NCBI GenBank assembly: GCA_947458405.1
Contig: CANGZW010000009.1
Span: forward strand, 1 to 63,986
Direction: 5' to 3'
DNA from: Leptospiraceae bacterium
Lineage (GTDB): Bacteria > Spirochaetota > Leptospiria > Leptospirales > Leptospiraceae
Length of the DNA: 63,986 bases
Positions 1-41,738 of this stretch are shown one piece after another. The translations under genes and the position numbers were made by a program. Positions within the stretch are counted from its first letter, which is position 1. Each line of letters begins with the position of its first letter. The notes below the pieces were generated by a model, which had not been told where the DNA came from, made no database searches, and worked only from the letters and a program-made list of their open reading frames with translations.

Positions 1-1892
1 CGATTTTCATACTCCAAGAGGAGAGCTTGAAATTTATCATAAGATTTATGTATTTCAGAGACCTCCGAAATTTTAGAAAATATTTCCAATAAATTTTCCT
101 GAAATTCTTTTACGAATTTGGGTGTATCCCGTTTTCTTATCATCATTCCCCTGACTTTGACCCCCCCTTTAGTATCTCTGGCAAAATAACGGGTAGCTAC
201 AGATATTTCTTCGTTTAATTTTGATTTTGGAAATACTATATAGGAGTAGGTAGCTTCTTCTAGTATAAGGATTCCTACTTTTTCTGTGATACTTTTCGTC
301 AAATGATTTATCTTTTGGGGAGATGTATCACCCATGAGCCAGAGAGAGTCCGTAAGACCATGCAAAAAAACGTATCCGTTGTCTTCGGCGATTTCCTTGG
401 CGACTGAGAGTGCCTCTCTTCCGTGGGCTGTAATTGCCTCATGAGCCTCTCTTTTACCGTATTTAGCATGTTTATAGCCTGTATATCCGAAACTCGTCAC
501 GAGTGCCCATTTTAATGCACTTGCTCTTAGACTAAATGCCTTTTTTTCTTCCTCTGTTAGGTCGGGATTTTTTAGTATTTCTTTTAGTTCGTCTCTTCTG
601 TCTAGCAAGAGCGAGATGGTTTCCCCTACAATTCCCTTGCGTTTGCGACAAGTGTGATACGGAGTAGCAGGAACCACCCTGGGAACATCGCTACAACAAT
701 GGCAATTGATAGTCTCCCCGCTGATATTATGAAGACGCATAAGATTCGGATAAAGAGAGCGAAAATCCAATTCTACTACATTCTCAAACACCCCCACGGG
801 AGGTCGAAAGCTAAGTCCCCCCTGATCAACTGCAAGTAGCACACCCAAACTTTTAATCTCGGGTGCCTGCCCCTTGCTTCGGGGAATGGCATATCCCATC
901 TTGAGCGCTGTCTCATCTTCCATAGCACTCATAGCCGAACCGGGAGAGGAGCGGGCTATCTTTTGTAATGTAAGACGGCTAAACCTGCTCATCTCAAATA
1001 TTCCCTCAAGCTCCGATTCCAGATAAAAAAATGACACCCCCCTGTCTATATGCAGTCTTCCAAAGAGGGGAAAAGGAGTAGTCTTAGCAATCGCCCTCCC
1101 GTAGCTAAAAAAAGATTTTTTTCGTATTTCCCCTTTTCTAATAACTCTCACGGAATCTCTGTCTAAGCAAAGGGAAATATTAGTATCACGAGACCATCCA
1201 AAAAGAGCAGGAAGAATTTGCTCATCCCCGCTATGCGTAAAAATCAAATCGGGATCTCTTTCTCGTAGTACGTTATTTAGTGTCTCTAAGGTTTCGAAAT
1301 TACTTGTGTTGCAAACTATTTTCTCTGACTCAGAAAAGGAAATTTCGAGTGGATTGTCTTTGCCCATTGGCATAAATCTTCCCCGGGGAGTAGAGAGCAA
1401 AATAGCGCGAAAGGGGGGAAGGGTGGTCTTTGTTTCTTTGAGTCGATTCGATAAAACATGTATAAAGAGATTGCCCAGTAAATTGTAGCCTATATTGATT
1501 TTAGCCAGTGGATATAGATCCATCTCTAGAAAGTATCTATGAACGGGTAAAATATCGGTATCGTAGTATTCTATATCCTCAGAGCTTTTCTCTGCCTCTG
1601 CATAGATAATTCGAAAAGAACGGGAATTGAGTATATACACCCGAAAAAGGCTTAGATCTTCCCCCGTCCAAACATCTTTTCGTACTACATTGGTTGGTTC
1701 GGAATAGATACTTTCTTTGATACATTTTCTAAAAAATGCCTCTCCCCGTGGGGTTAAAACTCTAATATGGATAGGAATATGATAGGTATCATGGAAAAAA
1801 TGATCTTTCCCGGAATCTTCTTTTACCCAAAGTGTTATCTGGTCTCCCGAAGACCATCCATCGAGTAGATACCCTGTGATACTATCTGTCAA
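1..1892 (-). CDS. Family B DNA polymerase (archaeal-like), partial, exonuclease-degenerate
   Basis: About 630 codons are visible and the gene runs off the left edge, so its C-terminal thumb is missing. Polymerase motifs in order: motif A DFRSLYPNLM (D376), motif B KWALVTSFGYTGY (K461), motif C HGLTDSLW (D515). An upstream segment YDTDILPVHRYFLE matches the part of archaeal PolB that precedes the 3'-5' exonuclease. Where DIET is expected, the sequence reads ILLSTPRG (near residue 167), so proofreading is probably lost. Motif B has V-T-S-F-G in place of N-S-x-Y-G, and motif C keeps only the second Asp. The start chosen is TTG at 1892-1890, the only start codon after the last in-frame stop; it overlaps the upstream gene by 11 bp, which suggests translational coupling. 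The region is visibly richer in G+C than its neighbours, which may indicate transfer. The family is confident; activity is inferred. Confidence 0.85.
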   Translation of the reverse strand, partial: MTDSITGYLLDGWSSGDQITLWVKEDSGKDHFFHDTYHIPIHIRVLTPRGEAFFRKCIKESIYSEPTNVVRKDVWTGEDLSLFRVYILNSRSFRIIYAEAEKSSEDIEYYDTDILPVHRYFLEMDLYPLAKINIGYNLLGNLFIHVLSNRLKETKTTLPPFRAILLSTPRGRFMPMGKDNPLEISFSESEKIVCNTSNFETLETLNNVLRERDPDLIFTHSGDEQILPALFGWSRDTNISLCLDRDSVRVIRKGEIRKKSFFSYGRAIAKTTPFPLFGRLHIDRGVSFFYLESELEGIFEMSRFSRLTLQKIARSSPGSAMSAMEDETALKMGYAIPRSKGQAPEIKSLGVLLAVDQGGLSFRPPVGVFENVVELDFRSLYPNLMRLHNISGETINCHCCSDVPRVVPATPYHTCRKRKGIVGETISLLLDRRDELKEILKNPDLTEEEKKAFSLRASALKWALVTSFGYTGYKHAKYGKREAHEAITAHGREALSVAKEIAEDNGYVFLHGLTDSLWLMGDTSPQKINHLTKSITEKVGILILEEATYSYIVFPKSKLNEEISVATRYFARDTKGGVKVRGMMIRKRDTPKFVKEFQENLLEIFSKISEVSEIHKSYDKFQALLLEYEN

Positions 1893-2145
1893 TTCCTGTG
1901 TCTGCGGAGAGTTTCCCTTCGAGAGACTCTACTTTTTTTAAGAGTTCTAAAACTGTAGAAAGTAGCACCAACTCTAGGGGATCATAGTGACCCTGTGCAT
2001 TGCCCGCCTGTATATGTTTGGAAGCCAGACTGAAAAGTCTATCAAAATAAAACTGATCTTCTTTGCGAAGAGATTTGCGAAAAGTTTGGAATTCGCTTTT
2101 TAATCTATCCACAGAAATAGAATAAGCAGGAAGAATTACACCCAT
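1882..2145 (-). CDS. Small hypothetical protein upstream of polB
   Basis: An 87-aa soluble protein that I do not recognise. It is rich in charged residues and is predicted to be mostly helical: a segment with DRLKSEFQTFRKSLRKEDQF is followed by a leucine-rich stretch, LELVLLSTVLELLKKVESLEG, which could form a coiled coil. The ATG at 2145 is preferred over one eight codons upstream because AGAGG lies 5-6 bases before it. Its 3' end overlaps the polymerase start by 11 bp, so the two are almost certainly co-transcribed and may be functionally linked, for example as a polymerase accessory or regulator. That role is inferred from position only. Confidence 0.6.
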   Translation of the reverse strand: MGVILPAYSISVDRLKSEFQTFRKSLRKEDQFYFDRLFSLASKHIQAGNAQGHYDPLELVLLSTVLELLKKVESLEGKLSADTGIDR

Positions 2146-2167: not shown

Positions 2168-2192
2168 AATAGATATATAGTATATATCTATT
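2168..2192. promoter_or_regulatory. 25-bp perfect palindrome upstream of the polB operon
   Basis: Two 12-bp arms mirror each other exactly around a central G at 2180, with core AGATATATA-G-TATATATCT. It lies about 23 bp before the start of the small gene at 2145, where a promoter would be. A TTTACA-like -35 lies further out on the minus strand. The sequence is A+T-rich, but palindromes of this length are rarely accidental. It is likely an operator for a dimeric repressor. Confidence 0.5.
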
Positions 2193-2567: not shown

Positions 2568-3641
2568 TTATAATAATCTACTAAAATTTATCTTTGTGCT
2601 TCCAGTGGGCAAACTAATGATATCTCCGTCTAGCCCTATATGAATTTTACCAGAAAAGATTTGTTTTGAATTTCCTAAAAAAATAGGTTCAAGAAGAGAG
2701 GTAGGTAAAGGGGGGACTATGTGATGAAATACTAAAGTATTTACTTTTGCTTCACGTGCTATTTCTGCCGCTTCTTCGGGAGAAGTGTGGTAGTTTACAA
2801 TGTCTTTCATGATCTTTTGTAAATTGGGGCGTTTAACTTTAACAGCACTTTCTTCGATTAATCCAACTAAGTAAGGAGATAGAGCTTCATGTAGCAAGAG
2901 ATCGACTCCTTTTGATTCCTCCAAAACCTTTGTATTTTTTTTCGTATCACCACTTATTACTATACTTCTACCTTTATAGGTAATTTTATATCCAACCGCA
3001 GGCTCTATAGGCGAATGATCGACAAGAAAAGAAGAGATTTCTAAGTCTTTATCCTGTAGTACAACGATTTTATTAGTAGCACTATCTAATTTAAAACTCT
3101 TGGGAATAGCTCCAAAACCCGTAGAGGGAACAGTAGCATTGCCATGATGAGAAATCCGGTAATTTTTATCAAGGCTGTAAGCCTGCATAATACCTGTAAT
3201 TACAGTATCTAGACCTTGTGGCCCATAAATCGGAAGTGGGCTTGAGTTACCAACAGAAACCCATCTTTGAAGCATTAATTCTCCTAACCCATCTATATGA
3301 TCAGAATGATAATGAGTTAGAAATAAAGCTTCAATATTACCATTATTTAATTTCATTCTACTAATATTTCTACTCCCACCGGTTCCCGCATCAAATACAA
3401 ACATTCTCTGTCCAGCAAACACAACTGTACAGGGACCCATTCTTTTTTCATCAGGAAAAGGAGATCCTGTACCACAAAGTACTACATGCAGTCCGTCAGG
3501 AAGTTTTGCTATCGGATTTGCAGAGAGATTTGACTCAATAGTTTTTTTGGCAACTGCTACTAATATTTTATTTTTTATAGAACAAGAAAATAAAAGAACA
3601 GTAACTATTAAATATACAAATAGTAGTTTTTTATTATTCAT
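2568..3641 (-). CDS. MBL-fold metallo-hydrolase, lipoprotein
   Basis: A 357-aa metallo-beta-lactamase-fold hydrolase of the RNase Z/arylsulfatase-like branch. The metal-binding motif THYHSDH (H110, H112, D114, H115) is intact, and further ligands are plausible in VISGDTK and the C-terminal FHHIVPP. The N-terminus is a lipoprotein signal ending LLFSC (C20), so the enzyme should be anchored in the cell envelope, facing the periplasm or outside. The ATG is supported by AGGAGAGG four bases upstream. The substrate cannot be read from sequence; a phosphodiester or sulfate ester is typical for this branch. It is separated from the neighbouring YHYH gene by 269 bp in which I see no gene. Confidence 0.85.
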   Translation of the reverse strand: MNNKKLLFVYLIVTVLLFSCSIKNKILVAVAKKTIESNLSANPIAKLPDGLHVVLCGTGSPFPDEKRMGPCTVVFAGQRMFVFDAGTGGSRNISRMKLNNGNIEALFLTHYHSDHIDGLGELMLQRWVSVGNSSPLPIYGPQGLDTVITGIMQAYSLDKNYRISHHGNATVPSTGFGAIPKSFKLDSATNKIVVLQDKDLEISSFLVDHSPIEPAVGYKITYKGRSIVISGDTKKNTKVLEESKGVDLLLHEALSPYLVGLIEESAVKVKRPNLQKIMKDIVNYHTSPEEAAEIAREAKVNTLVFHHIVPPLPTSLLEPIFLGNSKQIFSGKIHIGLDGDIISLPTGSTKINFSRLL

Positions 3642-41708: not shown

Positions 41709-41738
41709 ATTTTATATATAAATATTTATATATAAAAT
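41709..41738. promoter_or_regulatory. 30-bp perfect palindrome, probable PadR operator
   Basis: The 15-bp half reads ATTTTATATATAAAT and is mirrored exactly by 41724-41738. It is centred about 44 bp before the PadR start, over the expected promoter (TATAAA-like boxes on both strands). PadR proteins bind such inverted repeats. Confidence 0.6.

Follow-up and report, generated by a model that had tools for sequence, protein, structure and literature searches.

The question raised by the first gene of this stretch is whether a family B DNA polymerase that has lost its proofreading motif and altered its polymerase motifs is a decaying relic, a recent acquisition or a working, specialised enzyme. 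The gene lies at the edge of the window (the whole stretch of 63,986 nt analysed here), which is contig C9 of genome G000 from base 1, and its reading frame runs off the contig end, with some 110-120 C-terminal codons lost by comparison with complete relatives of 739 and 758 aa. Recovery of the missing C-terminus had been proposed by a sequence-only reading of this DNA; the 3' end was sought on the other G000 contigs and was not found there. The gene and its motifs are placed as follows.

3..1892, minus strand: polB2, PolB2-type family B polymerase, 630 codons (630 aa), TTG start
1368..1397, minus strand: place of Exo I, reading LLSTPRGRF, no DIE
747..767, minus strand: motif A, DFRSLYP (D376), full context ELDFRSLYP
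345..362, minus strand: motif C, HGLTDS (H511-S516), of the PolB2 HxxxD form, D515 kept

Throughout, the clade comprises the genes of G000, G002 and G003, which represent three genera (class, order and family being ranks as given by the analysis tool), and the canonical set comprises the 31 other PolB2 genes of the class, joined by two phage copies where 33 rows are stated. The PolB2 fragment of G212 is left out of this set, and G163 and G203 are included though cut at contig ends. Alignment A1 is without L059, L061 and L062, alignment A2 holds 16 of 28 canonical PPB2 and alignment A3 holds 24 of 30 iRadA rows.

That the gene has an archaeal-like family B framework, as first proposed, is borne out by Pfam (DNA_pol_B, 6.1e-18), by NCBIfam (NF004416, 3.2e-91, 306.7 bits, which does not reach the model cut-off of 516) and by PDB matches to 58 sequences, most of them archaeal PolB or engineered forms, followed by eukaryotic alpha and delta and E. 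coli Pol II. A PolB2 profile of the 33 canonical rows, made without the clade, finds the window gene at E 1.3e-172, and a haloarchaeal-only PolB2 profile (5 rows) finds it at E 1.5e-86. The published mark of PolB2, as given in the available portions of the papers cited here by PMC number, is the loss of the Exo motifs together with the change of YxDTD to HxxxD (PMC8764526, PMC2527604, PMC7544198), and an archaeal origin of bacterial PolB2 has been published (PMC11791011, PMC7544198). The erased Exo I, the changed motif B (LVTSFGYTG, without NSxYG), the HGLTDS motif C and the retained D376 and D515 that had been described are all present. An intact Exo I was also looked for elsewhere in the window gene, and the single D-x-E found, DIE at 106-108, lies about 60 residues ahead of where Exo I should stand and is HIE in both G002 and G003, and is therefore not taken as Exo I. 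However, these oddities are not peculiar to this gene but run through the family. When the window gene is aligned with 33 class relatives, DIE stands at the Exo I place in no row, while the FGYxG motif B and an H(A/G/S)xTD motif C stand in every row; H511, T514 and D515 are found in all 33 canonical rows (31 genomes and 2 phages), and the H and D of motif C in 5/5 haloarchaeal PolB2. Motif A reads SL in the window gene and in all five haloarchaea and QM in 33/33 canonical rows. Judged from these alignments, the loss of Exo motifs, the HxxxD and the absent NSxYG are the published PolB2/G2 signature, shared with all 31 canonical genes, and the proposal of a proofreading-dead, specialised polymerase fits PolB2. 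An AlphaFold prediction of the window PolB2 from four sequences reached a pLDDT of 44.9 and was set aside.

The G+C content of polB2 does exceed that of its surroundings (41.1% vs 32.8% for the window) and is the second highest among the 35 window ORFs of at least 200 codons. This had been offered as a sign of transfer, but a recent transfer does not follow, as G+C is elevated in G000 and G002 and not in G003, and PolB2-like genes are present in 35 of the 48 class genomes (one of them the G212 fragment).

Immediately upstream lies a small gene that the sequence-only reading had called private, together with a putative operator that it took as a sign of tight control.

1882..2145, minus strand: PPB2, 87 aa from ATG 2145, sharing 11 bases with polB2
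2168..2192, no strand assigned: perfect 25-bp palindrome (12-base arms, 1-base centre), candidate operator, 22 bases upstream of the PPB2 start

The small gene is real and is not private. A profile of the 16 canonical PPB2 alone finds the window ORF at E 1e-19, as the best of 645 ORFs from the window, L075 and L033, and gives 1e-18 for the PPB2 of G002 and 6e-18 for that of G003. Translation of the window gene most likely begins at ATG 2145, which has AGAGG ahead of it, and not at TTG 2169, and the resulting N-terminus, MGVILPAYS, is not of the MGRT type. The same holds for the clade as a whole (MGVI in G000, MGVQ in G002, MGAQ in G003; MGRT absent in 3/3), whereas PPB2 begins with MGRT in 30 of the 31 canonical genomes, one with a GTG start. 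No match to the window PPB2 was found among phages. As for the operator, the palindrome itself stands: perfect palindromes of such size occur at 2 sites in the window vs 0.03 expected from 30 first-order Markov simulations, and the one at 2168-2192 is the sole match in G000 at up to 3 mismatches. Nothing else favours tight control. One LexA is present in 7 of 8 family genomes, and a comparison by eye of the seven lexA promoters with promoters of the complex genes recognised no shared SOS-like or LexA box. The other window palindrome, at 41710-41737, is perfect and consists of A and T only.

In bacteria, PolB2 has been described as part of an iRadA-PPB2-PolB2 operon (Timinskas et al., 2025; PMC11791011), where iRadA is an inactive RadA, a RadA-like protein that lacks the N-terminal domain and the ATPase residues. 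No iRadA was seen before the window PPB2, the next long same-strand frame upstream of it (2568-3641) being a metallo-beta-lactamase-fold protein, and a search of G000, G002 and G003 with the canonical iRadA profile yielded no match at E up to 5; the profile scores 1e-79 to 1e-82 in three g5 genomes that contributed their iRadA to it. Directly before PPB2, however, G003 has a gene of 201 aa and G002 one of 210 aa, whose products share 28% identity over 163 residues, and a profile of these two returns a single G000 match, on contig C135, at E 9.3e-29.

C135:4744-5424, minus strand: iRadA-like ORF of G000, 226 aa

A three-row profile of these proteins matches canonical iRadA weakly (E 2.2e-5 over 146 columns, probability 76.6), with a profile-profile score of 40.3, whereas 60 column shuffles reached 17.9 at most and the reversed control 13.9. 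The canonical profile itself has 11 PDB matches at E up to 1, all RadA/Rad51 (best 0.0075); the diverged profile has no RadA match in PDB. Where canonical iRadA reads RAFTPYQ the clade has VNGHHM, VNMYHL or LNMYHL, and KQFFDGDV is replaced by GHYLDDTI, KQYIDENV or YHYLDEGV. Among 48 class genomes the three-row profile finds its own three at E of 1.2e-93 or lower, which is circular for G000, G002 and G003 as its source genomes, and has no clear match in the others, the next hit (4.2e-4) carrying an internal stop; plasmids gave no match either. The weak profile-profile match, taken with the position before PPB2 in G002 and G003, indicates that the C135 gene is likely a strongly diverged relative of iRadA. 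A profile search can thus falsely report iRadA as absent.

The divergence of PPB2 and iRadA has a counterpart in the polymerase. The published model has the PPB2 arm contacting the D(K/R) motif of PolB2, a motif described as invariable, and iRadA held by the stretch that precedes this motif, the interface being an AlphaFold prediction and not a solved structure (PMC11791011). The motif was located in the window gene at D356-Q357 by alignment and by distance to motif C, and the interface assignment is transferred via the motif.

822..905, minus strand: residues 330-357, at or near the modelled iRadA/PPB2 loop, with W338 changed to R, E344 to P and K357 to Q

Position 357 is K in 33/33 canonical rows and R in 5/5 haloarchaea, yet the clade reads DQ (G000), DQ (G002) and DN (G003) with D356 kept; given the missing K/R, the window gene is classed as a PolB2 variant. 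In addition, W338 has become R in all three clade members and E344 has become P, P and S. Columns conserved across canonical rows and haloarchaea number 92, and 10 of them depart in all three clade members, 5 of 12 within 317-357 vs 5 of 80 elsewhere (p 0.003, with limits set after seeing the data) and 3 of 8 within the narrower 330-357 vs 7 of 84 (p 0.04). When the comparison is limited to canonical bacteria, departures are seen in 35 of 155 conserved columns and are spread along the whole of PolB2, the densest bin being 46-90 (5 of 6) and the loop, 316-360, holding 8 of 21, so that a general rise in rate is part of the picture. The clade has also fixed residues of its own (P317, M321, S322, R338, G341 and G392, each in 3/3). 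Joint change of D(K/R), the MGRT arm and iRadA is seen in the three clade genera and in none of the 31 canonical genomes. Such concerted change of predicted contact residues offers natural evidence for the contact, as well as ready swaps with which it could be tested.

The arrangement of the genes has loosened as well. In canonical genomes the iRadA gene lies 5' of polB2 in 30 of 31, with G188 as the exception, where neither iRadA nor an MGRT PPB2 was seen in the stretch examined. (A transposase-looking gene lies near polB2 in G188.) Within the clade, all draft genomes with contamination of about 1%, G003 alone keeps the order iRadA-like, PPB2, PolB2; in G002 the iRadA-like and PPB2 genes are on C17 and PolB2 is on C27, inside a 146-kb contig, and in G000 PPB2 and PolB2 are on C9 and the iRadA-like gene is on C135. 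The operon is therefore split in two of three clade genomes, and differently in each, whereas for the bacterial PolB2 mutasome only the order iRadA-PPB2-PolB2 is reported in the available text, where some operons hold inserted genes or fusions (PMC11791011). Nevertheless, 8 of 8 family genomes have either the full set of three genes of the complex or none of them, and genes that are unlinked yet all kept argue that the three subunits cooperate without needing the operon.

Taken together, these data allow a model in which the window gene probably encodes the catalytic subunit of a PolB2 translesion complex that works and whose parts have diverged together, its activity being judged from sequence. 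The complex would consist of PolB2, a PPB2 trimer and iRadA. By analogy with Sulfolobus Dpo2, PolB2 would act as an extender polymerase, adding bases beyond lesions or mismatches, and in the modelled assembly iRadA and the PPB2 arm may grip a loop near the PolB2 active site. All three subunits would then have changed at this modelled contact while the operon broke and all three genes were retained, and the simplest account may be that the contact was rebuilt by co-evolution and not lost. The Dpo2 of Sulfolobus islandicus has an HxxxD motif C and yet is an active extender polymerase with no 3'-5' exonuclease (PMC8764526), so that "inactive" should not be assumed for the window gene; the two share the missing Exo motifs, the HxxxD and the retained second Asp (PMC8764526), although Dpo2 is archaeal and has its D(K/R) as 253-DK-254 (PMC11791011). 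E. coli Pol II, also of family B, is damage-induced and acts as a single subunit with an active exonuclease (PMC11791011).

How the clade came by its variant is less clear-cut. The window protein has matches in 46 of 296 phylum genomes, the 11 outside the class being partial (E 1e-6 to 1e-10, within residues 324-605) and not entering the comparison, and polB2 is present in 6 of 8 family genomes, the two without it being estimated as 99% (G005) and 75% complete. Vertical descent throughout is at odds with the absence of polB2 from G005, with the phage copies and with the discordance between PolB2 and LexA identities. PolB2 identity among the three clade genera is 44-48%, and between clade and canonical copies of the same family it falls to 31-34% despite LexA identities of 73-79%; G000 and G004 share 76% in LexA and 34% in PolB2, whereas G000 and G002 share 71% and 48%, so that PolB2 identity does not track LexA identity. 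One possibility, plausible but short of an even chance, is that the clade stems from another, deeper PolB2 lineage, whose acquisition was independent of the lineage canonical for the class. Such a separate origin would account for the low identity to the family's canonical copies and for six columns in which the clade agrees with haloarchaea and not with canonical rows (E374, S379, L380, I487, S516 and W518), and it is consistent with a haloarchaea-rooted tree that sets the clade, a single branch (100/100), outside the remaining 33 rows (89/95, which falls short of the tool's star). However, 15 other columns agree with canonical bacteria against haloarchaea, and the tree, which is without PolB1, PolB3 and the PolB2 of other bacterial phyla, carries a tool warning that two long branches meet where the clade attaches. 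In addition, the AU test does not reject a single clade for the whole family (p 0.147).

This last result speaks for accelerated vertical descent, by which a family ancestor with the canonical operon changed rapidly on the clade branch, and the excess of departures along the entire PolB2 points the same way. That scenario, which is tenable as a tentative account, would require motif A to revert from QM to SL and four other columns to return to archaeal states. Further, the canonical copies of the family (g5) group with two LE1-type phage copies (96/95), which makes exchange by phage plausible and means that the g5 copies may be newcomers.

It could also be argued that the complex is a decaying relic, in which selection was lost and the arm, D(K/R), iRadA and operon erode together, as several conserved positions are gone at once, the operon is split in two of three genomes and iRadA is barely recognisable. 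This appears improbable. The three frames remain open in three genera although their PolB2 are only 44-48% identical, D376, H511 and D515 are retained, the clade has conserved residues of its own, and all three genes persist although unlinked in two genomes. That the gene is some other family B polymerase (Pol II, G3 or phage type), as matches of PHROG phrog_262 and NCBIfam Pol II models to the palm might suggest, is scarcely credible, those matches being far weaker than the PolB2 profiles and the Exo and HxxxD signature and the partner genes being those of PolB2.

Set beside the bacterial PolB2 (G2) mutasome, the co-diverged complex shares the signature, an adjacent PPB2 and likely a RadA-like third gene (PMC11791011, PMC7544198), but is without the K/R of D(K/R) and the MGRT arm and has an iRadA that is hardly recognisable. 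The one paper in the literature searched that names at least two of PolB2, iRadA and PPB2 contains no mention of Leptospira, spirochaetes, phages or viruses in its main text, and the available main text of a 2026 survey of bacterial polymerases holds no word beginning Spirochaet or Leptospira (PMC12926913); the clade variant is regarded as undescribed in the main-text literature searched. A bolder proposal, unlikely on present data, is that it constitutes a second type of PolB2 mutasome in one Leptospira-related family, a deep lineage with a contact code of its own that would not cross-react with the canonical one; the lineage and the phage-linked canonical operon of the sister genus would then be separate acquisitions.

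The LE1-type Leptospira phages KF114880 and KF114878 (L089, L090) carry the full iRadA-PPB2-PolB2 operon with MGRT and DK. This three-gene module, whose PolB2 shares 45-46% identity with the G108 protein, differs from the clade in being phage-borne and in its canonical DK, MGRT and RAFTPYQ. The annotated PPB2 starts of both phages fall downstream of the MGRT start. An IMG/VR locus (L087) likewise holds the full operon, with MGRT and DK, followed by a SRAP-like gene, and further phage PolB2 matches are found in KF114879, KX656785 and L088. At L040 and L042, the mutasome operon is preceded by two divergent genes, one SRAP-like with an MCGRF start and one small and resembling a DNA-binding protein, and in G003 (L033) a gene with an MCVSY start follows polB2. 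In G059 (C1:46610-50626; L052, L117), a divergent lexA lies upstream of iRadA, with a similar order in L054 and L055, and the G059 LexA is 24-30% identical to the other LexA compared. Finally, the PolB2 of G003 ends in EQGSLF, and the iRadA of L052, L054 and L055 end in QMQFAF-like sequences, both of which resemble by eye the beta-clamp binding motif QLxLF as given in the available text of PMC11791011.
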